From assembly GCF_016808095.1 (NCBI RefSeq), contig NC_068974.1:4588001-4652000 (forward strand): a stretch of 64,000 nt of DNA. Direction: 5' to 3'. Below the pieces are notes generated by a model. That model was not told the origin of the DNA. It searched no databases and was given only the letters and a program-made list of their open reading frames with translations. The position numbers and the translations under genes are program-made. Shown here piece by piece: positions 8,691 through 58,680 of the stretch. Source of the stretch: Vigna angularis (lineage: Eukaryota; Streptophyta; Magnoliopsida; Fabales; Fabaceae). How positions within the stretch are numbered: the stretch's first letter is position 1; each line of letters opens with the position of its first letter.

Positions 8691-9652
8691 TGTTGGAACA
8701 ATCGGTACCGTTATAGAGTCACGCAGCGGAATTAAAAACTTGAAAGAGAGTGGAAAGCGTGTTCGGTCACCTTTTTAAGATAAATTTGTAAAAATAATTT
8801 TCTTTCAGAAAATTTATCGAACAATTGATATGCGTAAAAAATAAAGAGTGTAGGGAATAGAAAATCACACGAGTAATTTTTATACTGGTTCGATTCAACA
8901 GAATCTACGTCCAGTCGTTAATCACTATAAAAAGTGATTAACAATTCCTCTAAAAAGATGTTTCACAGATTACAACAAATAGTTAATAAAGCAGATAAAT
9001 AAACCTTCCTTCGACGAACGAACCGGAAGAAGAACACTCTGCCAACTCGAAGAGAACCGCTCCGACTATCGACAAACGAAACGCGAGCTTCTCCTATTCA
9101 CGAGACCAGGCAGAGCACCTTGCTAACTCGAAGAGAGCTTGCTCCGACAATCGACACACGAAACGCGAGCCTCTCCTGTTCACGAGACCAAGCAAGGGAA
9201 CTTGAACTATAGCTTCTGAGAACTTCCTCTGACAAACAGTATTCTGCTAGAGCTTCTGTTCAACAACGTTGTATTCTAATTTCTCCAAAACAAAATATAT
9301 AGCCAAGTACACTGAGTGCCAAAGATCAGCTCGCAACTGCCATGAATAATCGATTATTGTAAGTGATAATCGATTATTCAAGTCCGTTACAGGTTTTCAA
9401 AAATGTGATAATCGATTATATGAAGTGATAATCGATTATTCAAGTAAGACTTGTGATAATCGATTATTGCTTAATCATAATCGATTATTGCAGTTAAAAA
9501 TGCAAGTTTACAAGGTTTACAAGAATTTCCTACTACATTTAATTTCTACAAATTGCTTTTAACTAATTCTAATATCTTCTTCAACTAAAACTTCTTGTAG
9601 CATCATCAAAACAAATTTCTTCAAGATTTACCAATACTCCTTATTGGTAACA
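8691..9652 (-). repeat. 3' LTR of the Sirevirus element
   Basis: 962 bp, TG...CA, preceded on the minus strand by a purine tract at 9653-9665. A TATATA motif lies at about 9292-9301. Six copies of a palindrome centred on ATCGAT occupy 9346-9500. All eight differences from the other LTR lie between 8722 and about 9083. Confidence 0.95.
9346..9500. repeat. Six palindromes with core ATAATCGATTAT in the LTR
   Basis: Six near-identical self-complementary units spaced about 20-60 bp apart, duplicated exactly in the other LTR at about 27890-28045. Sireviruses are known to carry reiterated palindromic motifs; this particular core also occurs in other relics of this window. Confidence 0.9.
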
Positions 9653-9665
9653 ATCTCCCCCTTTT
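9653..9665 (-). other. Polypurine tract of the Sirevirus element
   Basis: Minus-strand sequence AAAAAGGGGGAGAT abuts the 3' LTR. Similar runs recur at about 9790-9805, 9832-9840 and 9850-9860, giving a reiterated tract. Confidence 0.85.
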
Positions 9666-10005
9666 TGATGATGATCAAAAATTCAATTTTAAAAGCAAGT
9701 TTGGCTTACTTGCAAAACATACAAGCTAACAAAAAACAACAAGGTTAGCAATACCTGTAATAATTTATACTTCTCCCCTTGTATTATTCTTCTCCCCCTT
9801 TTTGATCAGAAGCAAAAAGATCGGATGTGAAAGGCTCCCCCTAAAAATGATCTCCCCCTCAATTAATCAAAGGATGCATATAATCAAGAGATCATTTTAT
9901 TTATGAAAATAAATATTACATTATAAGAAGACACATAACAGACAGAATTATAACATAGATGAAATGGCAAGTAAACAACAAAACAGTCTAACATAGAACC
10001 TATAT

Positions 10006-11184
10006 CTAAAACTCAGGACTAGGAGATCTCTCGGGAGGTTGAATGTTGAGATGATTCTCGATGTTAGATAGGCGAACATCAAGATCAAGAAATTGATCAA
10101 CCATGTACTCATCAATAGATCGTTGCCACTCATAAATCTCCTCAAAGTGAGTCTTTTGTGCAAGACTCATATCCTCCAATTGTTTAGATAACCTTGCAAA
10201 ATGTTCTTCCATAGAAGTTGAGGAAGAGGAGGGTATGTTGGATGGTCCAGCATCAGACGGAGCAGCATCACTTACTGGGTCAGCCATATGAGTTTCCATG
10301 TCATCATCTTCATCTACATCAGGATGATCATCATCTTTGTGAATAAGGAATCTTCCTCTAGTAATGAATCCCATTTGACGAAAGGTTGTATCTCCAATTT
10401 CTGATCCCACAGTTTCAATATTTTGAACTAGTTCTCCTTCAACAGGTACACCTTTGAATTCTAAAATCCTAGAGATAAGAAGAGCATAGGGAAGTTGATA
10501 TGAATGGGATTTCTTGGCTTTTACCATTGTGTCAGCAATGAGAGCAGGCTAGTCAATGTGTATGTGATTTAGAATCCCGTACAATAGAAGTAAATCCTGC
10601 TCAGAGCATTGAGCATGGTTGGTTGCTCTAGGACATAAAATCCAGACAATCAAGTAGTGGATCATCCTTTCTTCAACTTTAAAGCCTCCAACCAGTAATT
10701 GCCTTCGATTTGTTTGTCGTTCAGGATGACGTAGGAAGGATTGAAAAGTCATCATCCTGTTGAAATCTTCAAGTCCTAAGTGGACTTTGACAGCATCATC
10801 CCAGATGGGAAGTTGAGCAACATTGGTCCATATGTCATCATCTAAAATGATGCGTACTCCCTTGACCTTAGTAGATATTATCCCATCTCGATAGCGCAAG
10901 TTGAAGTAGAAGACTCTTATCAGATCAGGATAAATGCAGCCTTTTTGTTCTAACAGATGCGTTAACCCCTGCTCAGCAAAAGTGTTTGGAAATTGAAAGC
11001 CATAGAAGTGAAAAAAGTCAAGACGAATAAACTTTACCGCCATGATCTTCCTTTCTTGCCAAGAATTAACAAAGTCTGCGTGTTTCCCTTGATCTGAAAT
11101 CCATCCATCTATGTTTGCAAGACGTGGTTGAGAAGAAGAGGAGGCTCCAACTGTTCTGCGACGGTGCCTTCTTGAGTCAGCCAT
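10006..11184 (-). pseudogene. Env-like third ORF of the Sirevirus, one in-frame stop
   Basis: About 392 codons in one frame from the likely start at 11184 (MADSRRHRRR) to the stop at 10006, broken only by TAG at 10549-10551. The N-terminal half matches the 'putative plant transposon protein' type (words such as FYFNLRYRDG, DDDIWTNVAQLPIWDD, HYLIVWILCPR). The C-terminal half is acidic then helical (MEEHFARLSKQLEDMSLAQK), plausibly a coiled coil. It lies between pol and the 3' LTR, the position of the SIRE1 env-like gene. Function in the family is unproven. The context fits TGG to TAG, but this is inference. Upstream codons to 11277 are open but probably untranslated. Confidence 0.78.
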
Positions 11185-11284
11185 GAAGGAAGAATGGGAA
11201 AATGAGATTTTGAGAAGATAAAGAGAAATGAAGAAGATTTGAGCTCTAGATTTGATTTCAGCAGTATTTAGGTGCAAAAGAGTG

Positions 11285-11580
11285 TCTAATAATCGATTAT
11301 GGGGGGCTATTTATAAGAAAAATGGAAAAGTTAGCCGTTTATGGCCGTTTATAACCGTTATGGGATGCTCCAACGGATCTATTTTTGAAACTGTCAGCGC
11401 GATAATCGATTATGGCTCGTGATAATCGATTATCCGTTCAATAATTACTGCCCAGAATTGCATGATAATCGATTATGCATAATGATAATCGATTATCTGC
11501 TCAAGATTTTCCAGAATTGAATTTTAAACATGCATAATCGATTATAACTTAGTGATAATCGATTATGAAGCGTTAAGTTT
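11285..11580. repeat. Seven ATAATCGATTAT palindromes between pol and the env-like ORF
   Basis: Seven units of the LTR palindrome recur here, just 3' of the pol stop codon and 5' of the env-like ORF in the direction of transcription. They are paired and separated by short spacers. This matches the repeated palindromic motif zone known from Sireviruses in position, with a different core sequence. Confidence 0.85.
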
Positions 11581-11614
11581 ACGAAAAATGCAAAAATTTG
11601 CATAGATTTTGATT

Positions 11615-11867
11615 CTAAGATATGTCTAACACTCCTAACTCTCTTCTAAGTTCAAAAAATCTATCTTTAGGTAGAGCCTTGGTAAAGATATCAGCTAATT
11701 GATGTAAGGTATCAACATATTCAATTTGACAATCCCCCTTTTGTATATGATCTCTTAAGAAATGGTGCCTGAATTCTATATGCTTAGTTCTTGAATGCAT
11801 TATGGGGTTCTTGGTCAAATTTATTGCACTAGTATTGTCACATTTTAGAGGAATTTTGTCAAGGAAG
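11615..11867 (-). pseudogene. Sirevirus pol, C-terminal piece of RNase H (separated by the nested insertion)
   Basis: Reads DKIPLKCDNTSAINLTKNP and RTKHIEFRHHFLRDH, the standard end of copia RNase H, finishing at TAG 11615-11617. The rest of RNase H lies beyond 22650. Removing 11868-22649 restores a continuous frame, which confirms the insertion point. Confidence 0.92.
11863..11867. repeat. Target-site duplication (GGAAG) of the inner element, left copy
   Basis: GGAAG precedes TGATGAATC at 11868 and recurs at 22645-22649 after the terminal CA. Confidence 0.95.
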
Positions 11868-14482
11868 TGATGAATCATTATTTTCTTCACTTCACTTAGC
11901 TTATTGTACTAGAATTAATCGGGGAATTATGTTTAAATGTCTAGTATTTTCCCATTTTTGGTAATTGTGCTTAATTTGTTTAGAAATTCTAATTTTAATT
12001 AAATTTGAATTATTTAAGCTAATTATTTACATTATCAACTGCAGGAAAATTTTGGAAAAATAATCTGGGACATTTAGAAGTTAAATGATTGAGGAGCACA
12101 TTACACATGCCACACGGCCGATTGAATTAAGCATCACACAGTTTGGAATAAAAGAGAGGGCACCAATTGGTTGAAAGGTCACGTGGCATCTCCAAAATGC
12201 AAATTACTGTGAAATTGTTATTGTAATAGCCCACGACCTCGTCATTCTGTTTGCACGTATTAATTGAAGAAAATGGGAGCCCCACATCCTTTCTTGATAA
12301 GTAGCCTTAGAGAGGTGGACATGTGAAAGATGGAGGGGACCACAAGGTGAAGTTTACCGTTTTGGAGGAAAAAGAGAATCTCCTTTCCTTAGGAAGTAAA
12401 GCACATGAAGGAAAAGGGGACCACCACTCAAGGTTTTATTCCCCTTTATTTTTGCTAGTTGATGACTTTTGGGAGCATATCACGTAAAAAAAACTCCAAA
12501 ATATGCAAAGTGGTGAATTTTGTTGAAGTTTCATTTCTACACACGGCCCCTCATTACTTTTGATATGTCCAAGAAATTATTGAAAGAAAGTACACATGAT
12601 AGTTTTAGAAGCAAATGAAAATTGATGGGAATTACACGGACGTTGTAAATTAAAAGGGACTTCACATGACACTCCACGGTCACCATCCAGTTCATTCTAC
12701 AACCAATCACAAAAGAATAATATTCTTTTAAAAGACACCGTAATAAAGAAAATGAGACCACTTGAGTGAAAGAATGCAACACGGAACTTTGGCAAAACAC
12801 TTTTGGCTGGAACGTGCAACACAAACGGGCTTCACATTCCCAGCACATTTACATGAGCAATAAGAGAAGCGTCCAGCTCCGTCCAGCGCCTCCATATCTC
12901 CACACAGCAGCAGCTCCAGCCAACACGTCCAGCACACATTCAACGTCCAACATCTAAGCAAGCTTGGAGCAGTGTGTGTGTGCACGGAGAAGGGAGGAGC
13001 AGTAGCTCACCATCCTCATCCACACGTAGCAGCCACCTTGCAGCAGAGAAAGAGGTCCCTCCAAGCAACACCACAGTCCAGCCGCAAACAAAGAAGTGAA
13101 GCTCCACGGTCTTGGTCTATGCAAAGAAGAGGAGTCCAACTATCTCCATGTCCAGCAGCAAAAAGAGAACCAGCCGTGATGAAAGGGCTAGAATGGTGCA
13201 GCAGCTGGTCCAGAGTTGGAAACGGATGAAGAAGACAACAAGTAGCCCACGGTGCAGAAGCAACATGACCACCACGCATCCTTGAAGTTGCAAGAAGAGA
13301 ATGGCAGCCACACATCCAGCTAAGTAAAGAATCACAGCTGGCTGAAGAGGAAGACGTCCAGCAAGCTTGGTCCAAGCAACCAGGCAGCAGTAGAAGCTCA
13401 CGGTCAATGGAGGCAGAAGCATCTTGATCCATTAGCTTGGTGTGCATGGTGATGAAGGCAACAACTTGGTGCAGGAAGTGGAGAGGAATTCACGGAAGCA
13501 AGATATTCACGTGATGGATGGATTGGATGGATTGGAAAGAAAGAGTAGTTCACGGACAGAGGAAACTACATAAGATTGGAATGGTGTGCAAAAGAAGAAG
13601 ACAAGTTGGCAAAAAAGAGAGGCTCACGGGTTCAGATTTTTGGGCTATAAATCCAGCAGCATGCAGAAAAGCAAGCGCATTAGATTTTAGGAGTAGGAAT
13701 TAGGAAGCTTTACGTTCTGGCTTTGGTTTTCTCCTCCCCTCTGGGAAGGTTTTGTGCTTGTTTTAATTTGCAGTTTCAAGGATTGAATTTCCATTGTAGT
13801 TTCCACTCTGCATTTTCCAATTGAGATTGAATTTAATTTTCATTTACGCACTCCGTTTTCACGTTTAAGCTTTGGATGAAATTCTGTTTATGAATTTTTA
13901 GATTTGCAATTTGAATTCTGTCAGGAATTTATTTGTTTTGCAATTTAACGTTTTCTTAATTTAAGTGTTCAATCTTTGGTAAATTCCATTTTCAGTTAAA
14001 TGTTTTTATCTGTTAAGTTTATCGTTCATGATTTTCTGCACTGTTAAATTCTGTCATTGCTTTTTACCGTTCAGTTTATTTTCAACGTTGTTTTTACTAT
14101 TCATTTTCACTGTTGTTTTGAGTAAATTTTATTTACATTGCTGTTATGTTTTCTGTATGTTTATTGTTCCAGCATTTTAATTTCAAACACTGTTAAACTT
14201 TCTATTTTTTTATTTTCACCGTTTTTACCGCCTTTTACTTTTTGATTTTACTATCTTTAAAATTTACTTCAGTGTTGTTGAATTCAGTTGTCTTATTTAA
14301 ATTCCAGTTAGTTTTAATTTATTTTTCGCACAAAATCAAAACATCCACAAAACCCCCCCATTACGTGTTAATCTGAAACTGAACCACGATATTGGTCCTT
14401 GAGAGACGACCTAGGAGTCACATCCTAGCTATACTGCATTAATTTCGTGTATCAAATTTGTATGACCGCGATAGTCGTACCA
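11868..14482 (+). repeat. 5' LTR of the inner element
   Basis: 2615 bp. A TATA box (TATAAAT, 13646-13652) lies in the phrase 'gggctataaatccagcagc'. The region 12850-13680 is clearly richer in G/C and CAG/CCA words than its AT-rich surroundings. Short ORFs here are repeated in the other LTR only because the LTRs are identical; none looks like a protein family. Confidence 0.96.
13646..13652 (+). promoter_or_regulatory. LTR promoter TATA box
   Basis: TATAAAT in the 5' LTR, repeated at 21808-21814 in the 3' LTR. It would start element transcription near 13680. Confidence 0.6.
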
Positions 14483-14487
14483 AATTT

Positions 14488-14505
14488 TGGCGCCGCTGCC
14501 GGGGA
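14488..14505 (+). other. Primer binding site, tRNA-Asp type
   Basis: TGGCGCCGCTGCCGGGGA starts five bases after the LTR end. It is complementary to the 3' end of plant tRNA-Asp (GTC) with one mismatch, as I recall that tRNA. Confidence 0.85.
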
Positions 14506-15137
14506 CCAATGACGGTTTGGTTTTAGATTTTTTGTTGTATAAAATTTTGTTTTGTTAATATATTTGTTTTGTGTGTTTTGTCTTGTATATTTTTGTAGGC
14601 GACAACGACACCTTGAGCAAATTTTGGCGGCGTTGTCACTTCAGTCCAGGTTCTTGTTTTAGATTTTTACTGTTTTTGTTTTATTACGTTGTTGTAATCT
14701 ATGTTTTGTCTTTTATATTTTTATTGTGCTATGTTGTGTATTTAGTTGTTAGATAAAAAAAAAAATAATAAAAATTGTTATGTCTTGTTTGTGCCTGTAG
14801 CATGTTAATTGTGTTGTATTTTATTTTATTTTTTTTTGTTGTGATGTGATATTCTATTTTCTGTATGTCTGTCGCATGTGTTTTATCTGTTAAATAAAAA
14901 ATTAAAAAAAAAAATTTAAAAAAAAAAAAAATCTAAAAAAAAAATTATTATTATGTTCTGTCTTTTGTGTGCGTGTAACATGTATAAATGTGTTGTGTTT
15001 TGTTTAGTGGTTGTTTTTGGAAATTTCAATTGATGTAAATATTGGTTTTCCCCATGTTATGTTTCTATATGTTTGGTTTAATCTTTGTTGAAGAGGAAGT
15101 CCAAGTCTGAGACAGGTTTTGCACTACACTAGAGGAG

Positions 15138-16391
15138 ATGACAGATTCTCAAGACTGGATGTATGATTTAGTCAAGTGTCTTCCCAAATTCCTTGGGTTG
15201 GCACATGAAGATCCATACAGGCACCTCAAGGAGTTTAGTTTGATGTGTTTATCTATGAGGCCTGTTGGTGTTTCAAAGGAGACAGTGTTGATGAAAATGT
15301 TTCCCATGTCCCTTCAAGATGAAGCAAGAGATTGGTTCATATACCAGTATCCTTTTAATAATTGGCAGGAAACACAACGAAAATTCCTCGACAAGTTCTT
15401 TCCTACAGCAAGGGTGATCAGCATTTGGAGGAAGATCACTACCATTGAGCAGTTTAAAGAAGAAAGCCTAGCAGATTATTGGGAGAGGTTTAACAGGCTC
15501 TACACAACTTGTCCAAACCACCAAATTCCAGAGCATTTGCTCTTGACTTATTTTTATGAAGGGCTCCTGGACAATGAAAGGATACTTGTGGATGCAGCTA
15601 TTGGTGGATGTTGGATGGATATAACCCCAACAGAAGCGAGGAAGTTGCTCTGCAAGCTGGCTGGTGAAAGTCCAATTGAGGTAGCAAAGGAAGAACCTGA
15701 GCAGCTTGTTCTGGATTCTGACACTGATAGCCCTGAGGATGCAGCTGATAACTTGGAGTTTGGTAAGAAACTTTTCAGTGAGCAAAAACAGGTTTATTCT
15801 GAACCTGAGATTCCAATTTTACCTGATTTGTCTACACATTCAAATGCATGTGATTTTACGCACATTGATTCTATAGGGTTTATGACTGATACTGATACAA
15901 ATTCGATTGATCATTCTAAAATTTTTAATTCAGTGTCAGCCATTGAACCCATTGGTCAAAGTCACGTCAATATTGATTTTGAAAGAGAAACTGTGCAATC
16001 TGATGATTTTATAGAGTTAGGACTAAACTTTGATTTAACACAGTTTTCTGAAAATTTTGAATGTGATTGCGAATCTGGTTCTTGCTCCATTTGTGCTGAA
16101 ATTGAATATGTGTTACATTCAGACTCTAAGTTTATTACAAATGCTATTAAATGTGAGTTTGATGACAAGAATGCAGAGTTAAAAGAAAATGCAGATGCTG
16201 ACATTAAGGAATGCATGATTAATGAAGGAGAGATATTGTCGAAACAGATTGCTGTGAAAAGAAAGAAGAAAAATCTTGTTGTGAATGACAGGGCAATATT
16301 GATGAAGCAGTTTCTCATAAAAATTTCATCGCTGGATCCTGAGGCAAAAGACATCTCCTTGATAATCCAAGTTTGGCAACTGCCACCATAA
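15138..16391 (+). CDS. Gag polyprotein of the inner element (retrotrans_gag domain)
   Basis: 417 residues. Residues about 15-175 form a Ty3/gypsy gag capsid region: LAHEDPYRHLKEF, MKMFPMSLQDEARDWF, FLDKFFPTARV, ESLADYWERFNRL, CPNHQIPEHLLLTYFYEGL, as in Athila/Tat-type gags. Residues 190-400 are acidic and low in recognisable structure, with a Cys-rich patch (CDCESGSCSIC) that is not a CCHC knuckle, then a basic stretch (KRKKKN). The ORF is uninterrupted, consistent with a young insertion. It ends before any protease or RT; A-rich non-coding DNA follows. Expected role: particle assembly, with enzymes supplied in trans (inference). Confidence 0.85.
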   Translation: MTDSQDWMYDLVKCLPKFLGLAHEDPYRHLKEFSLMCLSMRPVGVSKETVLMKMFPMSLQDEARDWFIYQYPFNNWQETQRKFLDKFFPTARVISIWRKITTIEQFKEESLADYWERFNRLYTTCPNHQIPEHLLLTYFYEGLLDNERILVDAAIGGCWMDITPTEARKLLCKLAGESPIEVAKEEPEQLVLDSDTDSPEDAADNLEFGKKLFSEQKQVYSEPEIPILPDLSTHSNACDFTHIDSIGFMTDTDTNSIDHSKIFNSVSAIEPIGQSHVNIDFERETVQSDDFIELGLNFDLTQFSENFECDCESGSCSICAEIEYVLHSDSKFITNAIKCEFDDKNAELKENADADIKECMINEGEILSKQIAVKRKKKNLVVNDRAILMKQFLIKISSLDPEAKDISLIIQVWQLPP

Positions 16392-17002
16392 CCAGGGGAG
16401 TTTTCCTGTTCATTCTTCCCTTAATTTTCTTGGTTTGCGAATTAGGGGAGAATTCTGATTTTCTTAGGTTATGATTTGTTATTTTTAAAAAAAAAAAAAA
16501 AAAAAAATTATTTGTGTTCTGTTTCAAATCTGTTATTTTGTTAATGTATGTTTTGTAAATGTGTTTTGTTTGCTGTTTTTGACATTTGCGTTTTGTGTGC
16601 TTTGATATTTTGTGTTCGATATTAGGTCATTTGTTTCGTTAATATGTGTTCTGTTTTAATTATTTATTTAGTTTTTGTTAAAAAAAAAAAAAAAATTCAA
16701 CAAAGAGCATAATTAAGTAAAAGGCAGAGAGGTGTAGTTTGAGCAGATACTAATTTGAGTGCATTTATTTATTATAATAATAATATAAAAAAAAAAAAGC
16801 AAACATATAAAAAAAACAAAAATGCATAAAAACATAATAAAGATGTTCCGGGTTCGATCATAATTGATCGTTAATATTACACACCATAATAAAAAAAAAA
16901 AAAAAACACAAAAACATAAAAAAAAATGTTCATATTACAACCCTTATTCTGGCCACACTTGGCCAATAAAAACATAAAAAAAAAAAAAAATAACATAAAA
17001 CA
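16392..17002. other. A-rich spacer between gag and the antisense gene
   Basis: Repeated A-runs and 'cataaaaa' words on the plus strand, with no ORF. Similar A-rich blocks lie at 17580-17660 (inside the antisense leader intron) and 18445-18490, so the antisense gene sits among A-rich blocks. Confidence 0.7.
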
Positions 17003-17552
17003 TTAAAACTGGAAGAATTCACGAGCTGGTTGTGGTGGTCTAAGGGAGAGCACCGTTGAAGGAGCTCTGGTTCGGAATGCAGGGGGCGTAGGTGGCGGGA
17101 TTTGCCGTTCATCTTTGTCGTCGTCGATTATGATGGGAATGGGGAAGAGATCCAGCAGCCTCGGTGCCCTCATTATCACCCAGTCGTATTCTTTCAACCA
17201 AAAAAAAAAAAAAAAATTTGTGTTAATAATAGAAGAGGAAAGAAAATAAAAATTGAGATCTGATCAGAGTCTTACCGTACATATATAGCGGCAGTTGTGA
17301 AAACTGAGTGCCAGTGGGGTCTATCTCCGCTTGCCAACGCCTGACCCGATTGCCGTGGTTGTTGAACCAGCAGTGCACGTTGTATTCGCTGGCATCTCCG
17401 AAGATCCTTAGTCGAGACGTGATCTCGACAACTTGCGCTCTGCTTGGGTGTGTGACCCCAAAGTTGTAGATTCTGGTCATCATCTGGGTCTGATTTTCGG
17501 TAGGACGCCACCGCTGACTGGTGTATCTCTTTGATTCTATCTCACTCATCAT
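17003..17552 (-). CDS. WUSCHEL-related homeobox (WOX)-like protein, antisense inside the LTR element
   Basis: Coding exons 17276-17552 and 17003-17190, joined across an 85-bp intron (GT 17275-17274, AG 17192-17191), give 154 residues without a stop. Residues about 14-80 fit a WOX homeodomain: RWRPTENQ, IYNFGVTHPS, ITSRLRIFG, then helix 3 NVHCWFNNHGNRVRR. The Trp, Phe and second Asn of the recognition helix are kept, whereas the usual FQNHKAR is changed. After the splice, LLDLFPI resembles the WUS box (TLxLFP), followed by an acidic run, a Pro-rich segment and the C-terminus REFFQF. WOX proteins are nuclear regulators of stem-cell and organ identity; activity here is unknown. The intron survives because the gene is antisense to the element's transcript. 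Start ATG 17552 or 17549. Confidence 0.75.
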
Positions 17553-17567
17553 TCCTCTCAATATATT

Positions 17568-18133
17568 CTAAATAACAAACTTATATAAAAAAACATAAGA
17601 AAAAAAAAATGAAAAGCAAAAACATAAAAAAATAAAAAAATAAAAAACAGAAAAATAAATAGCATAAAAAAAAAATTAGATTAGTTCTGTGTTTTCTTTA
17701 TTTGTTCTTGTTTCCCGTTAGATTTATTTTGTCCTGTGAATCTTTGATGTTCAGTATCTTGTCTCAGGTTTGTCCATTTTCCAGTTTTAGGTCCATCAGT
17801 TTTGTCCATGTTTAGGTCCAGGTCCTCGCATAGGGTCCTAACGGATCTAGGTCCAGTGTTTTGTCCATTCTTTTTGATTTTAGTTTGATTTTTAGTTGGT
17901 TTTAGTGTGCGTAATAATAAGCTGAAAACTGGAAAAGCTGAAAAAAAAAATACAAAAATAACTGGAAAGCAGGAAAAGGGGGCAGGGAGAGAGGACAAAT
18001 AATAATCGGCAGAAGAAGAAAAAAAAATGGAAAGCAGGAAAAGGGAGAGGGAGAGCAGGAAAGAGAAAAGCTGAAAAGAAGAAAAATGTAAAGCAAGCAG
18101 GAAAAAACAGAGATCCAGGTGCAGAGGACTTAC
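17568..18133 (-). other. Predicted 5'-leader intron of the WOX-like gene
   Basis: Minus-strand donor CTCCAG|GTAAGT at 18134/18133 and acceptor TTATTTAG|AATATA at 17568/17567, 15 nt before the start codon. T-rich before the acceptor. The prediction is from splice motifs only. Confidence 0.55.
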
Positions 18134-18335
18134 CTGGAGTAGTAGGGCTTGCAGAGGCTCCTCGAGGTTCTCAGACTCTTCAGCAGGCGTAGTGGCAGGG
18201 GCTCTACGCAGATCTCAGATCTTCAGCGGACGCGGGGGGAGAGGCTCCCTGCAGAGTTCCAGACGTTCAAGTTGAGAGAGAGGAGCAGAGAGAGAGTTGA
18301 GAGAGAGGAGTAGAGAGAGAGTGAGGGATCAGAAA
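18134..18335 (-). other. Predicted non-coding 5' leader exon of the WOX-like gene
   Basis: A GC-rich, CT-repeat-rich block on the minus strand (repeated CTCTCT words), typical of plant 5' UTRs and unlike the surrounding A/T-rich retroelement DNA. It ends at a strong donor, CAG|GTAAGT. The transcription start is estimated at about 18335 from the TATA-like element upstream. Confidence 0.5.
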
Positions 18336-18360
18336 TAGAGCTCGACGCGGAGGAGCGGAC

Positions 18361-18372
18361 CTTTTTGTAGCC
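18361..18372 (-). promoter_or_regulatory. TATA-like element upstream of the antisense WOX-like gene
   Basis: Minus-strand GGCTACAAAAAG. The position suits transcription initiating about 30 bp downstream in the CT-rich leader. It would be an antisense promoter internal to the retroelement. Confidence 0.35.
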
Positions 18373-18429
18373 AAAATTCTGCCACTGTAGCAACAGTGCC
18401 GGTCATTCCCCCCGAAACTGTTGCCACAG

Positions 18430-20029
18430 TACCGGTCTTCTCCTTTTCCAAAAAAAAAAAAAAGTAAAAAAAAAGTAAAAAAAAAAAAAAATTATTAGCA
18501 TCTTCTGATGGGTGCTAGGTGATTTCGACATTTGCTGATGGATGTCACTGATAACATCTACTGATGGATGTTACTTAAAATTTCTTCCCTTTTTCCTAAC
18601 TTTTTATTGCACTTGTCTATATTATTTGACTGCTCTGAAATTGATAATCTGATGATTGTAACACACTGAGGACATTGTGTGATTTAAGTGTGGTCTACTG
18701 GGAAGAAATTCTGATTTTTCTGTTAGTTTCTGTTAGTATGTATTTTGTGTGTTAAATTTTTTTTTTTTTTGTTTTTGAGTGTTAAATTTTTTCTGTTTCA
18801 CGATTATTTTTGTGTGTTTTGTGTGAAATAAATTTTACATTTTTCTCTTGATTTCTGGATGATTTCTAAGTTGTAGATTTTTCCTTCACTTACTTAATAC
18901 TTATGGTTTGAAATCCTTGCTTTTCTCTGCTTGGAAAGATGATTATAATGTTTGAGAGGGTGAATTGATTATAACACGAATACCCTGTGTGAGAAATTGA
19001 GCCACTTTATTTTCTTTCTTGTGTGAGATATGTATCTTGATTGCTTGCACATATGCCTTGGCTTGATTCTTTTTGATATACTTGATTAATATGCATGTTC
19101 AGACGTGATAAAGGCATTTTTGTTCTTGAACCTCTCTAGCCAAATAAGCCTACCTTGTTATTATCCATTGATAACCCCTTTTGAGCCTATGTTGTCCCAA
19201 TTTCTTTGTTTTTAAGCTCATACTATAATCCTAAGTGAAAAACCATGATTATCTAAACCTTAGGAAATTTTGGAGCTTTAGAAGTGTTTTGGGAACAAGT
19301 GTGGTCTTCCTGGGGATTCTAGTGAATTGGCGAGTGGGTTCCTCTTCGTGTTTCATTTTTGTAAATATGTTGTGTATTTTGTCTCTTACAATTGAGTGCA
19401 AAAAAAAAAAAAAGAAATTGAAAAATAATCCTGTGAATAATGGAGTCGAGAAGAGGATTGAATTAGAGGTTTGGGTGAGATTTCACTGCGTTTACACTTT
19501 TTCCCTAGTGCTCCTCTATTTCTTCTGAGATTTAGCTACTTATCCATATTTATCCTCCCCTGTCCTTGGCCCCATTACAACCCAGTAAAGACCTTTTGAT
19601 CTGAAGATGCATATGTTTTAAGTATTGATAATTAGAAGCTTGCCAAGTCTACTTGTGTTTGTTTTCTTGAGTACATCGAGCTGATATTATTATTTACCCT
19701 AGACACTTGAGAGAAACACTGTGAGTGCATCTGTGAGGTTTTGTTATTTTTGAATCACCTCTTGAGCTGAGTGATTATTTTTCCGTGTATTGAATTGCTT
19801 GGAAGATTTCTATAAGTATATGCTTTTCTTGACTATGTGTTGGATATTGTCTACTTCTTTTCTTTGTCCAGACTTCTTGAGAACTTTGTAAATTTTGTTT
19901 ATTTTTCTCGTGAGTCTTTATTTTTCTGTCTGCTGAGTTTGTGTCACCTTTCTAAAAGTCCTTTGAACCATTCCCTGATTTGTGTCTTAATTTTGCCCAG
20001 GAGTGCAAAAGACTAAGTGTGGTCTATTT
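18430..20029 (+). other. Non-coding 3' internal region of the inner element
   Basis: T-rich, with no family-level coding. The phrase 'AAGTGTGGTCTA' occurs near 18687 and again at 20015-20026 next to the 3' LTR, as commonly seen in Athila/Tat 3' regions. The plus-strand ORF at 19235-19528 shows no family resemblance. The polypurine tract is weak (purine-rich 20000-20020). Confidence 0.6.
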
Positions 20030-22644
20030 TGATGAATCATTATTTTCTTCACTTCACTTAGCTTATTGTACTAGAATTAATCGGGGAATTATGTTTAAAT
20101 GTCTAGTATTTTCCCATTTTTGGTAATTGTGCTTAATTTGTTTAGAAATTCTAATTTTAATTAAATTTGAATTATTTAAGCTAATTATTTACATTATCAA
20201 CTGCAGGAAAATTTTGGAAAAATAATCTGGGACATTTAGAAGTTAAATGATTGAGGAGCACATTACACATGCCACACGGCCAATTGAATTAAGCATCACA
20301 CAGTTTGGAATAAAAGAGAGGGCACCAATTGGTTGAAAGGTCACGTGGCATCTCCAAAATGCAAATTACTGTGAAATTGTTATTGTAATAGCCCACGGCC
20401 TCGTCATTCTGTTTGCACGTATTAATTGAAGAAAATGGGAGCCCCACATCCTTTCTTGATAAGTAGCCTTAGAGAGGTGGACATGTGAAAGATGGAGGGG
20501 ACCACAAGGTGAAGTTTACCGTTTTGGAGGAAAAAGAGAATCTCCTTTCCTTAGGAAGTAAAGCACATGAAGGAAAAGGGGACCACCACTCAAGGTTTTA
20601 TTCCCCTTTATTTTTGCTAGTTGATGACTTTTGGGAGCATATCACGTAAAAAAAACTCCAAAATATGCAAAGTGGTGAATTTTGTTGAAGTTTCATTTCT
20701 ACACACGGCCCCTCATTACTTTTGATATGTCCAAGAAATTATTGAAAGAAAGTACACATGATAGTTTTGGAAGCAAATGAAAATTGATGGGAATTACACG
20801 GACGTTGTAAATTAAAAGGGACTTCACATGACACTCCACGGTCACCATCCAGTTCATTCTACAACCAATCACAAAAGAATAATATTCTTTTAAAAGACAC
20901 CGTAATAAAGAAAATGAGACCACTTGAGTGAAAGAATGCAACACGGAACTTTGGCAAAACACTTTTGGCTGGAACGTGCAACACAAACGGGCTTCACATT
21001 CCCAGCACATTTACATGAGCAATAAGAGAAGCGTCCAGCTCCGTCCAGCGCCTCCATATCTCCACACAGCAGCAGCTCCAGCCAACACGTCCAGCACACA
21101 TTCAACGTCCAACATCTAAGCAAGCTTGGAGCAGTGTGTGTGTGCACGGAGAAGGGAGGAGCAGTAGCTCACCATCCTCATCCACACGTAGCAGCCACCT
21201 TGCAGCAGAGAAAGAGGTCCCTCCAAGCAACACCACAGTCCAGCCGCAAACAAAGAAGTGAAGCTCCACGGTCTTGGTCTATGCAAAGAAGAGGAGTCCA
21301 ACTATCTCCATGTCCAGCAGCAAAAAGAGAACCAGCCGTGATGAAAGGGCTAGAATGGTGCAGCAGCTGGTCCAGAGTTGGAAACGGATGAAGAAGACAA
21401 CAAGTAGCCCACGGTGCAGAAGCAACATGACCACCACGCATCCTTGAAGTTGCAAGAAGAGAATGGCAGCCACACATCCAGCTAAGTAAAGAATCACAGC
21501 TGGCTGAAGAGGAAGACGTCCAGCAAGCTTGGTCCAAGCAACCAGGCAGCAGTAGAAGCTCACGGTCAATGGAGGCAGAAGCATCTTGATCCATTAGCTT
21601 GGTGTGCATGGTGATGAAGGCAACAACTTGGTGCAGGAAGTGGAGAGGAATTCACGGAAGCAAGATATTCACGTGATGGATGGATTGGATGGATTGGAAA
21701 GAAAGAGTAGTTCACGGACAGAGGAAACTACAGAAGATTGGAATGGTGTGCAAAAGAAGAAGACAAGTTGGCAAAAAAGAGAGGCTCACGGGTTCAGATT
21801 TTTGGGCTATAAATCCAGCAGCATGCAGAAAAGCAAGCGCATTAGATTTTAGGAGTAGGAATTAGGAAGCTTTACGTTCTGGCTTTGGTTTTCTCCTCCC
21901 CTCTGGGAAGGTTTTGTGCTTGTTTTAATTTGCAGTTTCAAGGATTGAATTTCCATTGTAGTTTCCACTCTGCATTTTCCAATTGAGATTGAATTTAATT
22001 TTCATTTACGCACTCCGTTTTCACGTTTAAGCTTTGGATGAAATTCTGTTTATGAATTTTTAGATTTGCAATTTGAATTCTGTCAGGAATTTATTTGTTT
22101 TGCAATTTAACGTTTTCTTAATTTAAGTGTTCAATCTTTGGTAAATTCCATTTTCAGTTAAATGTTTTTATCTGTTAAGTTTATCGTTCATGATTTTCTG
22201 CACTGTTAAATTCTGTCATTGCTTTTTACCGTTCAGTTTATTTTCAACGTTGTTTTTACTATTCATTTTCACTGTTGTTTTGAGTAAATTTTATTTACAT
22301 TGCTGTTATGTTTTCTGTATGTTTATTGTTCCAGCATTTTAATTTCAAACACTGTTAAACTTTCTATTTTTTTATTTTCACCGTTTTTACCGCCTTTTAC
22401 TTTTTGATTTTACTATCTTTAAAATTTACTTCAGTGTTGTTGAATTCAGTTGTCTTATTTAAATTCCAGTTAGTTTTAATTTATTTTTCGCACAAAATCA
22501 AAACATCCACAAAACCCCCCCATTACGTGTTAATCTGAAACTGAACCACGATATTGGTCCTTGAGAGACGACCTAGGAGTCACATCCTAGCTATACTGCA
22601 TTAATTTCGTGTATCAAATTTGTATGACCGCGATAGTCGTACCA
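20030..22644 (+). repeat. 3' LTR of the inner element
   Basis: 2615 bp, exactly the length of the 5' LTR at an offset of 8162, ending ...GTACCA at 22644. Four substitutions and no indels by eye. Confidence 0.96.
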
Positions 22645-22649
22645 GGAAG
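22645..22649. repeat. Target-site duplication (GGAAG) of the inner element, right copy
   Basis: Matches 11863-11867. After it the Sirevirus RNase H frame resumes. Confidence 0.95.
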
Positions 22650-25471
22650 ATATCAAAGTCTTCCAATTGTTGTTTCATCCACAAAATTTGGGCACAACAG
22701 TTTCCAGCTGCAATATATTCAGCTTCGATGGTAGACAAAGCTACACATGCTTGTTTCTTTGAGTGCCATGACACTAAAGAACATCCCAAGAAATGACAGG
22801 TTCCACTAGTACTTTTTCTATCAATTTTACAACCATCATAATCTGCATCAGAGTATCAAATTAAACTAGGTGAGGCATCAGAGGGATACCAAAGTCCAAA
22901 TGAAGTAGTTCCCTTAAGATATTTTAGAATTCTCTTAACTGCAGTCAAATGAGATTCTTTAGGATTGGCTTGGTATCTAGCACATACACAAACACTCTGC
23001 ATAATATCTGGTCTACTAGCAGTTAAGTATAGCAAGGATCCTATCATGCCTCTAAACATGGTTTCATTCACTCCTTTTCCAATTTCATCCTTATCTAAAT
23101 AACATGAAGTACCCATGGGTGTACTAGCTTCCTTGCAGCTATCCATACCAAATTTCCTAAGAATTTCTCTACAGTATTTAGTTTGGGAGATGAATGTTCC
23201 ACCATTCATTTGTTTTATCTGTAGTCCTAAGAAAAAGTTTAACTCACCCATCATGGACATCTCGAATTCACCTTGCATTATTTTTGCAAACTCTTCACAC
23301 AAAGAATCATCAGTTGACCCAAAAATGATATCGTCTACATAAACTTGCACGATTAAAATGTGTTTTCCTACTTTCTTAATGAATAAGGTTGAATCAACCT
23401 TTCCTCTAGAAAATTCATTTTCAATTAAAAAGGTACTAAGTCTTTCATACCAAGACCTAGGTGCTTGTTTAAGACCATAAAGGGCCTTTTTCAACTTGTA
23501 AACATGATCAGGAAATTTAAAATCTTCAAAGCCAGGAGGTTGACTAACATACACTTCTTCTTTTATAAAACCATTTAAGAAAGCACTTTTTACATCCATT
23601 TGATATAGTTTAAATTTCATCAAAGATGCATATGCAAGTAATAATCTAATTGCTTCTAACCTGGCTACCGGTGCATACGTTTCATCATAATCTATACCTT
23701 CCTCTTGACAGTATCCCTTAGCAACTAGCCTTGCTTTATTCTTTGTGATGTTTCCATCCTCATCAAGCTTGTTCCTGAATACCCATTTTGTTCCTATGAC
23801 TTGGAATTCTTCTTGTTTTGGAATAAGTTCCCAAACTTCATTCCTTTCAAATTGATTTAGCTCTTCTTGCATAGCAATGCACCACTTGTCATCTTGAAGA
23901 GCTTCCTTTATATTTTTAGGTTCTACCTGAGACACAAAAGCAACAGTTAGACAAAAATTATTTAAATTATGTCTAGTAGTTACCCCTTTTGATATATCTC
24001 CTATGATGTTGTCCAAAGATAGTCCTCTTGGTTGTTGATAGCTTTTGGAATCAATGACTTGGGGTGTTTCTTGAAGCTCCGGAGGATAATTTTCATTTAG
24101 ATACATCTCCTCAAGGGCTTCTCTTAAGTAATCCTCATCACCTGCAATGGGTCTATTTGACTCAAGAGGATTTACCTCAAGGTCTACAATCTCATCAAAA
24201 ACAACATGCATTGATTCTTCAATTATCAGTGTTCTTCTATTGAACACTCTATAAGCTTTGCTAGTCAAAGAATATCCTAGAAAAATTGCTTCATCAGATT
24301 TTGCATCAAATTTTCCAAGATTATCTTTTCCATTATTTAAGACAAAGCATTTGCATCCAAAAATTTTCAAATGAGATATATTTGGTTTTCTACCATTCAA
24401 CAGTTCATATGGAGTTAATTTTAGAATTGGCCTAATAAGCATCCTATTTAACACATAACAAGCAGTACTTACTGCATCAGCCCAAAAGTATTTTGGAACA
24501 TTAGATTCATTCATAAGCGTTCTAGCTAATTCTTCTAATGATCTATTTTTCCTTTCAACAACACCATTCTGTTGGGGAGTTCTAGGTGCAGAAAAATTAT
24601 GTGCAATGCCAAATTCTTCACAAAATTTTCCAAACGATTCATTTTCAAATTCACCACCATGATCACTTCTCAAAGTTTTGATTTTCAAATCTTTTTCATT
24701 TTGAATACGTTTAGCAAAAGTTTTAAATGCTTTGAAAGCTTCACTTTTCAGAGTTAAAAAGAAAGTCCAAGTAAATCTAGAGTAATCATCAACAATTACA
24801 AGAGCATAGTAGTTTCCACCAAAACTTTTAATTCTAGATGGACCAAACAAGTCCATATGCAAAAGTTCTAAAGGTTTTGATGTTGAAATCATGCTTTTAG
24901 ATGAAAATGAAGATTTGGTTTGTTTACCCTTTTGACATGCAGAACAAAGTTTATCTTTCTCAAATTTTAGTTTAGGCAAACCAATCACAAGATCCTTAGA
25001 GATTAATTTATTTAAGTGTTGCATGTGAATATGTGCAGCTCTTTTGTGCCATAGCCATGGATTGTCTTCTTTAGCAACTAAGCATGTTATACTATGACTA
25101 GATGCACTCTCAATATCAATCAAATATATGTTATTATGCCTAACACCTTGCAAAGCAATTTCAGCAGAATTTTTATAATAAACAGTACATTTGTCACTCT
25201 CAAAAGTTACCTTGAAACCTTTGTCGCATAGTTGGCTTATGCTTAGAAGATTATGTTTGAGGCCTTCAACGTATAAGACGTCTTTTATTGTCAAAGTGTT
25301 TCCTCCTCCAGTGTTTCCAGTGCCCATTATTCTGCCTTTGTTGTTATCCTCATACGTTACAAATCCTTGCTTCTTTTTCTCAAAAGAGATGAATCTTTTC
25401 TTATCACCAGTCATGTGTCTTGAGCAACCACTGTCAAGATACCACAGTGACTTCTTGGACTTATATTGATC
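22650..25471 (-). pseudogene. Sirevirus pol: protease, integrase, reverse transcriptase, RNase H (N-terminal part)
   Basis: Open from 25471 to a TGA at 22856-22858, continuing in the same frame to the insertion at 22649. Order: protease ([11 protein letters not shown], catalytic DSG); GAG-pre-integrase with HHCC-type Cys pair (CSACQKGK); integrase core with [19 protein letters not shown] and [10 protein letters not shown] (D, D, E); RT with [21 protein letters not shown] and YVDDIIFGS; RNase H with [14 protein letters not shown] and LSTIEAEYIAAG. The TGA sits between WYPSDASPS and SDADYDG and truncates RNase H. The stretch downstream of the TGA is still well preserved. Its C-terminus is at 11615-11867. 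Confidence 0.93.
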
Positions 25472-25548
25472 CTACAAAACAAGTTAGCAAGAGTTTTAGG
25501 TCCCCAATCTAATTATGGGTCCTTGGGGTTAGTTCATGAGAATATAAA

Positions 25549-27189
25549 TCATTTCACAACTTTAACCCATGCATATTTACCATTTGGAATACCAAAATGT
25601 TTAATGTTGCATTTGTTTGATGTGTGTCCATGCTTCATACAGTAAAAACAACAAGCATTACTTACTTTGTTTTGAACAAAAGTCCCTTTTTCAACCCAAA
25701 CTCTACGAGTTCTTCTTACTTTGGACTTATTTATTTGATGCATATTTCAATTTTCAATATTGCTTCTATTAAGGTTTGTCTTAGCAGGTGAATTTGTCTT
25801 GGTTGCCTTTGCAAGTAAGTTTTCAAGTATGTCAATATCAAACATATGACTCTTACAAGATAAGCATTCAACAGGTTCAACAGTAGCATTTGCATCAGAT
25901 AATTTTGTTTCTAAAGTACTAACTTTATTTCTTAAGACAACTTCATCATCAAGCAACTTTTCATAATTCAATTTCAATTCATTATGCTCTTTCTTTAACT
26001 TTTTATGAGCAACATCAAGTTTTTCAGATTCATTTAACAAATCAAGAAATGCCTTTTGTAAATCAAATTCATCATTTGACTCTAAGCTAGAATCACTTAC
26101 TTGGCTTCCAGTATCTTCTAAGTCAGCCATTAGACAAATATTGACTTCTTCATCTGAATCACTTGAGCTTGTTGAGCTAGATGCATTGTCTTCCCAAGCT
26201 ATGTAAGCTTTCTTCTTCTTTGGGAATTTCCTTTCTTTCTTTTCTTCACTTTTCTTGTTCTTTGGACATTCAGTTTTCATGTGCCCTCTTTCTCCACATC
26301 CATAGCATTTAACACTTGAAGGAGATTCTTGATTTTCTTTCCTTTCTTTACGAAATTTGTCCTTTCCTTTTGCCTTCATAAACTTGGCAAATTTCTTTAT
26401 CATGAGGCTCATGTTCTCCTCATCGTCGTCGGAATCATCGTCCTCAATTCTCTTAGAACTTTTTCCTTTTGAGATTTCAGACTTGAAAGCTAGAGTTTTC
26501 CTATTGCCTTGATCCTCTTCAGCAGTCAATCTCCTCAACTCAAGTTCATGCTCACGGAGCTTTCCAAACAAGATTGCCATTGACATTTGAGTAAGATTTT
26601 GAGACTCCGAGATGGCAGTCACCTTTGGTTGACAAGACCTGTCCAGAGATTTCAGAATTTTCACATTAAGTTCATCAGTATCAAAAGTCTTACCCAACCC
26701 TGTTAAATGATTCACAATATGAGTGAATCGTTTTTGAACGTCAGAGATCGTTTCTCCAGGTTGCATTCTGAACATCTCATATTCCTGAATGAGAGTGTTC
26801 TTCCTAGCGCGCTTCACGTCCTCTGTTCCTTCATGAGTGACTCTGAGGACTTCCCACATCTCCTGTGCTGTCTTACACACTGAAATTCTATAAAATTCAT
26901 CAAGTACAACAGCAGATGAAATTATATTGCGAGCTTTAATATCAAACTGAGCTCGTCTATTTTCTTCAGCAGTCCAATTAAAATAAGGTTTTTCATTCTC
27001 TACACCATCAACAATATTCATAGGAATATAAGGGCCATTTTGTACAGCTTCCCAGATACCTCTATCAACAAACCCCATAAAAATCTCCATTCTCACTTTC
27101 CAAAAAGCATAGTTATCACCAGTAAACAATGGAGGTCTGTTAATGGAAGCACCCTCAGCATATACATGGTTTTGATTGTGACCGGCCAT
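25549..27189 (-). pseudogene. Sirevirus gag with two zinc knuckles, one in-frame stop
   Basis: 480 codons from MAGHNQNHVY to a TGA at 25747-25749, then 65 more in the same frame to 25549. The N-terminus contains the copia gag region (GDNYAFWKVRM, KARNIISSAVVLDEF, EMWEVLRVTHEG, YEMFRMQPGETI). A CCHC knuckle CYGCGERGHMKTEC lies near residue 297, followed by a basic then acidic Ser-rich stretch and a long charged helical segment. A second knuckle CFYCMKHGHTSNKC comes after the TGA. Gag would form the capsid and bind RNA. The pol frame differs from this one, so a frame change occurs at 25472-25549. Confidence 0.9.
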
Positions 27190-27220
27190 TTTCGCAAATT
27201 TTGAAAAACTATCAAAGCAA

Positions 27221-27232
27221 GCTCTGATACCA
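27221..27232 (-). other. Primer binding site, initiator-Met tRNA
   Basis: Minus-strand TGGTATCAGAGC, two bases after the 5' LTR end, complementary to the 3' end of initiator tRNA-Met. Confidence 0.95.
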
Positions 27233-27234
27233 AT

Positions 27235-28196
27235 TGTTGGAACAATCGGTACCGTTATAGAGTCATGCAGCGGAATTAAAAACTTGAAAGAGAGTGGAAA
27301 GCGTGTTCGGTCACCTTTTTAAGATAAATTTGTAAAAATAATTTTCTTTCAGAAAATTTATCGAACAATTAATATGCGTAAAAAATAAAGAGTGTAGGGA
27401 ATAGAAAATCACACGAGTAATTTTTATACTGGTTCGATTCAACAGAATCTACGTCCAGTCGTTAATCACTATAAAATGTGATTAACAATTCCATTAAAAA
27501 GATGTTTCACAGATTACAACAAATAGTTAATAAAGCAGATAAATAAACCTTCCTTCGACGAACGAACCAGAAGAAGAACACTCTGCCAATTCGAAGAGAA
27601 CCGCTCCGACTATCGACAAACGAAACACGAGCTTCTCCTATTCACGAGACCAGGCAGAGCACCTTGCTAACTCGAAGAGAGCTTGCTCCGACAATCGACA
27701 CACGAAACGCGAGCCTCTCCTGTTCACGAGACCAAGCAAGGGAACTTGAACTATAGCTTCTGAGAACTTCCTCTGACAAACAGTATTCTGCTAGAGCTTC
27801 TGTTCAACAACGTTGTATTCTAATTTCTCCAAAACAAAATATATAGCCAAGTACACTGAGTGCCAAAGATCAGCTCGCAACTGCCATGAATAATCGATTA
27901 TTGTAAGTGATAATCGATTATTCAAGTCCGTTACAGGTTTTCAAAAATGTGATAATCGATTATATGAAGTGATAATCGATTATTCAAGTAAGACTTGTGA
28001 TAATCGATTATTGCTTAATCATAATCGATTATTGCAGTTAAAAATGCAAGTTTACAAGGTTTACAAGAATTTCCTACTACATTTAATTTCTACAAATTGC
28101 TTTTAACTAATTCTAATATCTTCTTCAACTAAAACTTCTTGTAGCATCATCAAAACAAATTTCTTCAAGATTTACCAATACTCCTTATTGGTAACA
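27235..28196 (-). repeat. 5' LTR of the Sirevirus element
   Basis: 962 bp, TG...CA. Carries the same six ATAATCGATTAT palindromes (about 27890-28045) and TATATA (about 27836-27845) as the 3' LTR. Confidence 0.95.
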
Positions 28197-57489: not shown

Positions 57490-58680
57490 GGGGCACGGAC
57501 GGCTATAATATTATACACGTCCGGTTCATCACTAATATGACGTCTTTGGGGATTTAAAAATGATATTCGCGGGTGGTTTTAGACGTCTGTCATGGGTCGA
57601 GCCGGACGTCTATAATATTATGAACGTCCGTGTCAAGGGGACGGACATCTACTAGGCTGAACAACTGAACGTTTCAGTTCCCCATGTCAGCCCTTAAACG
57701 TCCGTCCTCGGAGGGCTCGGACGTCTATAATATTATAAACGTCCGTCCCCCCATATCGGACGTTTAACGGGCTGAAGACAATTAAATCTCCAACCACCCT
57801 GTCAGCACCTTAAACGTCCGATATGGGGGGGCGGGACGTTTATAATATTATAAACGTCCGTGTCGGCCCAGGACGGACGTTTAAGGGCCGACATGGGGAG
57901 CGTTCAGTTGTTCAGCCTAGAAGACGTCTGTCCCCCTCACACGGACGTTCATAATATTATAAACGTCCGTCTCGCCCTAGGATGGACGTTTAAGGGCTGA
58001 CATGGGGACTTGAAACATTCAGTTGTTCAGCCTAGTTGACGTTTGTCCCCCTCACACGGACGTTCATAATATTATAAACATCCATCTCGGCCTAGGACGG
58101 ACGTTTAAGGGCTGACATGGGGAGCGTTCAGTTGTTCAGCCTAGTAGACGTCCGTCCCCCTCACACGAACGTTCATTATATTATAAACGTCCGTCTCGCC
58201 CAAGGACGGACGTTTAAGGGCTGACATGGGGACTTGAAAACGTTTAGTTATTCAGCCTAGTAGACGTCCGTCCCCCTCACACGGACGTTCATAATATTAT
58301 AGACGTCCGTCTCGACCAAGGACGGACGTTTAAGGTCTGACATGGGGATTTGAAACGTTCAGTTTGTTCAACCTAGTAGACGTCCGTCTCCCTCACACGG
58401 ATGTTCATAATATTATAAACGTCCGTCTCGACCAAGGACGGACGTTTAAGGCCTGACATGGGGAACTGAAACGTTCAGTTGTTCAGCCTAGTAGACGTCC
58501 GTCCCCCTGACACGGACGTTCATAATATTATAGACGTCCGGCTCGACCCAGGACGGACGTTTAAGGGCTGACATGGGGACTTCAAACGTTCAGTTGTTCA
58601 GCCTATTAGACGTTCGTCCCTCTCTCACGGACGTCTATAATATTATAAACGTCCGGCTCGACCAAGGACGGACGTCTCGA
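57490..58680. repeat. Right subterminal array, about ten copies of a 105-117-bp unit
   Basis: Each unit contains 'TTCATAATATTATAAACGTCCG', a block GGACGGACGTTTAAGGGCTGA and 'ACATGGGGA...GTTCAGTTGTTCAGCCTA'. The core TAATATTATA is self-complementary. Copies near 57610, 57725, 57840, 57948, 58062, 58170, 58287, 58404, 58520 and 58627. The first few units are partly inverted relative to the rest. Confidence 0.92.

Follow-up and report, generated by a model that had tools for sequence, protein, structure and literature searches.

How does a WUSCHEL-like gene come to lie antisense inside a young retrotransposon, and has the element kept it? The question is raised by a locus in Vigna angularis, within 64,000 nucleotides of DNA (the whole stretch analyzed, called the window below) in which an initial annotation, made from the letters alone, had described such a gene. 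The roles of antisense extra genes in plant retrotransposons are called undetermined in the available part of PMC7264820.

The host element is an LTR retrotransposon of ~10.8 kb (11868 to 22644), delimited by self-blastn and direct comparison, with an LTR pair equal in length. Its parts, with the duplicated target site, are as follows:

11863..11867, no strand: left target-site duplication GGAAG, 5 bp (sequence inspection)
11868..14482, plus strand: 5' LTR, 2,615 bp, 4 mismatches to the 3' LTR (self-blastn, direct comparison)
14488..14505, plus strand: primer-binding-site-like TGGCGCCGCTGCCGGGGA, 5 bp 3' of the 5' LTR
15138..16391, plus strand: gag open reading frame, 417 aa (PF03732, E = 9.4e-16; relative P0065 full-length, 83% identical)
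20014..20029, plus strand: polypurine-tract-like TAAGTGTGGTCTATTT, directly before the 3' LTR
20030..22644, plus strand: 3' LTR, 2,615 bp (self-blastn, direct comparison)
22645..22649, no strand: right target-site duplication GGAAG, 5 bp (sequence inspection)

Paired LTRs, a target-site duplication, primer-binding-site-like and polypurine-tract-like sites and gag are all present, as in LTR retrotransposons. With 4 mismatches over the 2,615-bp LTR pair, the element is young; at 1.3e-8 substitutions per site per year, a rate that we assume, the LTR difference corresponds to ~60,000 years. No recognizable pol open reading frame was found in the internal 5.5 kb between the LTRs, and no pol domain was found in the 8 non-gag sense frames there (63 to 97 aa; the scan for pol remnants covered sense frames of at least 60 aa), among which a weak IL8 match (E = 0.029) was taken as chance. 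An element with no recognizable pol would be non-autonomous and would need pol proteins from elsewhere. It is probably of Ty3 type and Athila lineage, a placement that uses the primer-binding-site-like TGGCGCCGCTGCCGGGGA, which we take to resemble the tRNA-Asp type of Athila elements; the element holds no reverse transcriptase to place in a phylogeny. The available part of PMC6317226 names tRNA-Asp as one primer type of non-chromoviruses. No Rfam family reached gathering score across the element, the tRNA scan returned no tRNA gene, megablast against the plasmid collection gave no match, and none of 62 pattern matches among IMG/VR contigs was confirmed. Three copies of the octamer AAGTGTGG, part of the purine-tract-like site, lie in the element (18686, 19297, and 20015), the first two upstream of the copy at the 3' LTR.

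The surroundings are themselves repetitive. The insertion target is a copia element (8691 to 28196) with 962-bp LTRs (8691 to 9652 and 27235 to 28196) that are 99.2% identical, a target-site-duplication-like TAGAC on both sides, minus-strand gag- and pol-like open reading frames, and an open reading frame at 10549 to 11277 that has a Transposase_32 match below the curated cut-off. By eye, an RNase-H-like reading breaks off at one flank of the insertion and resumes at the other. A relic at 47991 to 50160 matches the copia region 25008 to 27237 at ~75% identity in the reverse orientation, and dense tandem and inverted repeats with a unit of ~110 bp fill 57579 to 58677. The minus-strand frame 62725 to 63141 resembles, by eye, a degraded gag and partly overlaps stretches ~77% identical to the inverted region 94 to 1515.

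Entirely between the LTRs of the younger element, on the minus strand and antisense to gag, lies a gene that runs from ~18372 to 17003:

18134..18372, minus strand: exon 1, CT-rich leader, non-coding here, donor CCAG/GTAAGT, 5' end uncertain
17568..18133, minus strand: intron 1, 566 nt, GTAAGT...TTATTTAG, GC content 33%
17276..17567, minus strand: exon 2, coding from the ATG at 17552, ending TACG/GTAAG
17340..17516, minus strand: WUSCHEL-class homeodomain, residues 13 to 71 (Pfam, PDB searches, fold search)
17191..17275, minus strand: intron 2, 85 nt, GTAAG...TTGAAAG, GC content 24%
17003..17190, minus strand: exon 3 of the joined frame, stop codon at its end
17135..17167, minus strand: WUS-box-like APRLLDLFPIP, residues 101 to 111 (sequence, family alignment)
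17039..17065, minus strand: EAR-like APSTVLSLR (family consensus APSTELSLR), residues 135 to 143 (sequence, family alignment)

All introns have GT/AG borders, GC content is 50 to 57% in exons versus 24 to 33% in introns, and the joined coding exons read from the ATG at 17552 to 17003 as 154 codons plus a stop. The two coding exons, consensus splice sites, and 154 codons of the initial annotation are confirmed, with junctions at 17276/17190 and 18134/17567 as it described. Its further claim, that the introns run antisense to the genomic RNA in a gene carried by a young LTR element, agrees with the position between two LTRs that differ at 4 of 2,615 bp and with the GGAAG duplication. A host WOX locus struck by the element was considered as an origin and rejected: the LTRs enclose the entire gene, and the sequence that received the insertion is the copia element.

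Relatives of the protein formed 58 clusters in a single-sequence search and 64 in a profile search, all named Vigna angularis, with listed member counts that sum to 265, in which one locus may be counted more than once, from different assemblies or annotation sets; the multi-copy Vigna family anticipated in the initial annotation was thus found. This search, which requires shared 5-residue words and similar length, returned neither proteins of other legumes nor any cellular WOX protein. One-off transduction was rejected as an origin, there being 64 clusters in the family. Six representatives (P0059 to P0064) make up a second subfamily, 38 to 50% identical to the window protein (~45%) over the aligned part. 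Neither motif is altered in P0059 or P0060; P0061 and P0062 each differ at a single residue of the 11-residue box and retain STELSLR, with helix 3 damaged in P0061; P0063 keeps STELSLR and has no box in its model; and P0064 has neither. P0062 retains an intron at the position of the window gene's intron, a position therefore common to both subfamilies. The exact join across intron 2 was found by pattern in 22 of the 64 representatives, and P0023 has the join with one changed residue. The other 42 (P0023 included) lack the exact pattern, and truncation or misjoining is seen in many of them, a sign that decay has affected many copies or models.

Other copies may lie within the same LTR pair, as two observations suggest. 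The locus tags of a gag relative (LR48_Vigan07g135300) and a WOX relative (LR48_Vigan07g135500) are close, such a link being found for 1 of 12 gag relatives. Gene models P0045, P0055, and P0057 match the translated region 18436 to 18140 (E = 5e-11, 4e-10, and 0.002, computed with low-complexity filtering and composition correction switched off), and the upstream region is therefore shared by other copies; similarity of the exon-1 region to other gene models starts at 18436, and P0055, by eye, leaves exon 1 at the window's donor and skips exon 2. When LTR sequence was sought inside the relatives' gene models, the exon-1 region alone was found. P0023 and P0056 have, by eye, a similar repetitive upstream peptide (GxAGQxGxWAL type) fused to parts of WOX-like exons, perhaps another recurrent upstream exon. 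Public records list copies as ordinary genes, and P0047 is named WUSCHEL-related homeobox 2 (annotation only), as would be expected if the host used some copies as ordinary WOX-like regulators, with selection acting on host loci. The high member counts, the many broken models, and the antisense position in a young element with an open gag speak against such recruitment, to which we give the least credence of all readings weighed here.

By sequence comparison and predicted fold, the homeodomain is of the WUSCHEL class and WOX type, in line with the WOX-like homeodomain first described. PF00046 scored above its gathering score in both the exon-2 open reading frame (E = 7.7e-7) and the joined protein (E = 1.6e-6), and the Pfam homeodomain was significant in 49 of 59 aligned family members. 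With phmmer, the exon-2 homeodomain piece matched STENOFOLIA (5.4e-11) and WUSCHEL (1.9e-10) in the PDB and no others at E up to 1e-3. The family profile, run against all PDB sequences, found WUSCHEL (1.7e-12) and STENOFOLIA (1.5e-11) alone at E < 0.01, the next match being an unrelated membrane protein (0.017). An AlphaFold2 model of the window homeodomain exon had a mean pLDDT of 77 (block means of 90 to 96 over residues 21 to 60), and a fold search with it ranked WUSCHEL and STENOFOLIA chains 1 to 11, above every other homeodomain listed (TM-score by target, 0.73 to 0.93; rank 1 alone below E 0.001). For the full-length relative P0001, the model (mean pLDDT, 57) was of low confidence in its C-terminal half and gave WUSCHEL and STENOFOLIA chains at ranks 1 to 9. 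The exon structure, the homeodomain matches, and the LTR pair are far beyond chance. The helix-3 signature is HCWFNNH in the window protein and VYCWFQNH in the second subfamily, with WF.NH kept and neighboring residues changed; for the WUS clade it is FYWFQNH (PMC9968055, available part).

Crystal structures of WUS, as described in the available part of PMC7203112, show R38, N90, and R94 reading bases and Q89 in a less defined role; K82, N83, Y86, K92, R96, and R100 contact the backbone. The window protein keeps the equivalents of R38, N90, and R94. Helix 3 was readable in 53 of the 64 representatives, by a pattern that itself requires N90; within these 53, the R38 equivalent is present in 51, the R94 equivalent is present in 52, and the Q89 position holds N in 48 and Q in 5. 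In the alignment, the window protein has other residues at the positions of the backbone contacts K82, Y86, and K92. With the base readers kept and changes at Q89 and backbone contacts, core DNA preference is probably WUS-like and backbone affinity altered. The suggestion in the initial annotation that helix-3 changes alter DNA binding is modified accordingly: the changes fall on Q89, K82, Y86, and K92 and not on the base readers.

In the WUS clade, TLxLFP binds TOPLESS-type corepressors, and WUS also has an LxLxL EAR-like motif (PMC9968055, available part). The family consensus holds APRLLDLFP[IV]P and APSTELSLR; counted as pattern matches on the 64 cluster representatives, the WUS-box-like motif occurs in 41, the EAR-like motif in 43, and helix 3 together with both in 29. 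The canonical TLxLFP was found in 0 of 64, the opening T of the WUS-clade box being absent, so the WUS-box-like LLDLFPI noted earlier is present as LLDLFPIP, with similar forms in 41 relatives, and is not a strict WUS box. LxLRL, the full LxLxL EAR form (LSLRL), occurs in 4 of 64, in the second subfamily; the window copy reads TVLSLRP. By its sequence, the protein looks like a WUS-clade repressor whose box departs from the strict WUS-box form, and the element lineage probably carries its own WUSCHEL-like repressor gene, with a product predicted to recruit TOPLESS.

Compared with WUS-clade WOX proteins (Arabidopsis WUS, STENOFOLIA), the window protein shares homeodomain class and fold, the base-reading R38/N90/R94, the helix-3 WF.NH, the docking Trp beside the minor-groove Arg, an LxLFP box, and a C-terminal LxL or LxLxL motif. 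It differs in having a homeodomain only ~40% identical, 154 residues, a box with no opening T, changes at Q89, K82, Y86, and K92, an acidic stretch that follows the box (and precedes it in WUS), and a many-copied gene carried by a retrotransposon. Being short, with a WUS-type homeodomain that has the R38/N90/R94 equivalents but K82, Y86, and K92 replaced, it might instead dimerize or compete with host WUS/WOX proteins and so block them, for example weakening meristem defenses against mobile elements; both corepressor-type motifs are kept, however, which a pure competitor would not need, and we regard a dominant-negative action as highly doubtful.

Has the gene been maintained? Identity between the subfamilies is 93% in the WUS-box-like motif, 85% in the EAR-like motif, and 82% in helix 3, versus 35% in the linker, 29% in the acidic stretch, 21% in the C-tail, and 20% at the N terminus. 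These values come from 16 rows, 14 of the first subfamily (the window protein and 13 relatives with clean models, taken from 58 first-search representatives) against P0059 and P0060; P0061 (damaged helix 3), P0062 (retained intron), and P0063 and P0064 (no box in their models) were left out, and the EAR-like stretch was counted as RAPSTVLSL, residues 134 to 142, one residue early. Between the window protein and P0059, 18 of 20 motif sites are identical versus 16 of 61 other non-homeodomain sites (Fisher p = 5e-7). When the window frame was mutated neutrally in simulation until 45% identity remained, 7 of 400 runs (kappa 2) and 5 of 400 (kappa 5) ended without a stop codon. The substitutions that separate the subfamilies are gentler than neutrality predicts (mean BLOSUM62, −0.03 and −0.13; neutral 95% ranges, −1.09 to −0.37 and −0.97 to −0.35). 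Among first-subfamily members the substitutions are only slightly more conservative than expected under neutrality: most values lie close to the upper limit of the neutral range, and those of P0001 and P0027 are not elevated. The comparisons share ancestry and the models were selected for open frames, so these results are indications rather than a dN/dS test; they argue for selection on the motifs between subfamilies, since frame, intron position, and (in the best-preserved members) both motifs were kept while other parts diverged.

The family might still be passive cargo, a WOX fragment captured once and amplified with the element, its open frames belonging to young copies that have yet to decay. 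Such an origin would agree with the 42 of 64 models that lack an exact join, with the ascertainment in databases that list intact-looking and so favor open frames, and with the very young window copy (4 of 2,615 LTR mismatches); at first-subfamily distance (84% identity), a stop-free frame is expected in 22 to 24% of neutral runs, so open frames there are unsurprising. It sits poorly with two subfamilies, ~45% identical, that keep frame, intron position, a near-identical helix 3, and both motifs while their linkers diverge, at a distance where just 5 to 7 of 400 neutral simulations stay stop-free, and we think it unlikely.

Other antisense genes in retrotransposons offer points of comparison. 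Like Grande gene23, RIRE2, Retand TRP28, and common bean pvRetro13 ORF2, as far as the available parts of the sources describe them, the window gene is a many-copied additional gene that runs opposite to the sense genes, in the interval separating them from the 3' LTR. An aORF-3R is a conserved opposite-strand open reading frame ahead of the 3' LTR, present in most family copies; position and strand match in the window, there are many relatives by protein clusters, and a single gag/WOX locus-tag pair ties another copy to gag. The antisense extra open reading frames of plant Ty3 elements carry TRP28, SMC, a few other domains, or none known, and a homeodomain is not described for them in those parts; the window gene differs further in being spliced and in an element with no recognizable pol. 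Ty3 elements of orchids that encode an AlkB-type m6A demethylase domain (PMC9289625, available part) are similar in that a lineage acquired and kept a host-type domain, and differ in that theirs is a 2-ODD enzyme domain in another element lineage. Maize Grande gene23 is reported to have an internal antisense promoter of its own, and the available part of PMC7264820 proposes a double-stranded RNA role, which gives some ground for a reading in which the antisense transcript pairs with the genomic RNA or feeds small interfering RNAs and the protein is secondary. In the family described here, conservation sits in protein motifs and a frame-restoring splice join, neither needed for an RNA role, which makes this reading improbable.

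The reading that we favor, at a probability of about 0.55, is that this is a pol-less Ty3-type element whose lineage kept an antisense WUSCHEL-clade-like gene as its own trans-acting repressor. The lineage would long ago have taken in an intron-containing gene of this kind, in antisense orientation, and kept it. The gene's own internal promoter would drive transcription against the genomic RNA, and the transcript would then be spliced; because the genomic RNA carries the introns in reverse orientation, they would pass through reverse transcription intact. The product would be a small nuclear protein, its homeodomain binding WUS-like sites and its WUS-box-like and EAR-like motifs recruiting TOPLESS-type corepressors. 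Acting in trans, it may tune expression of the LTR or of host WUS/WOX targets in meristematic cells, where new insertions can become heritable, to the possible benefit of the element. Other elements and retroviruses encode nuclear proteins on their antisense strand, as the available parts of the sources describe; by this analogy, a trans-acting element-encoded repressor appears most likely.

Sites that such a repressor could bind were counted in the element itself. In the LTR, TAAT occurs 38 times versus 26.9 expected (reached by 5 of 200 shuffles) and CACGTG, counted on both strands, 4 times versus 0.6 expected (10 of 200), with no TGAATGAA; in 18400 to 20029, TGATTA occurs 5 times versus 2.0 expected (9 of 200). 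Across 32 tests of the LTR and internal region, no convincing enrichment of known WUS sites was seen, and with a mild TAAT and CACGTG excess in an LTR that has no TGAATGAA, self-regulation of the element is unproven. A bolder alternative, which we put forward tentatively, turns from self-regulation to host-meristem targets: in the meristem or germline precursors of the host, the lineage's WUSCHEL-like repressor may occupy WUS-type sites, perhaps also some in the element's own LTRs, and keep those cells permissive for transposition, and the copies would form a dispersed mobile branch of the host WOX network with a developmental role.

Within the open-license literature searched, a homeodomain antisense open reading frame in plant retrotransposons seems unreported: the word start "homeo" is absent from the available parts of PMC7264820, PMC11963269, PMC9289625, PMC6317226, and PMC4093653, as is "WUS" from those of PMC7264820, PMC11963269, PMC9289625, and PMC4093653, and the available part of PMC6482515 concerns elements near host WOX genes. 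A WUSCHEL-type homeodomain gives an antisense gene a concrete, testable role, through its DNA targets and TOPLESS binding. If our preferred reading is true, a developmental-type regulator can be scattered across a crop genome by mobile DNA, with consequences both for WOX annotation and for ideas on how elements reach the germline.
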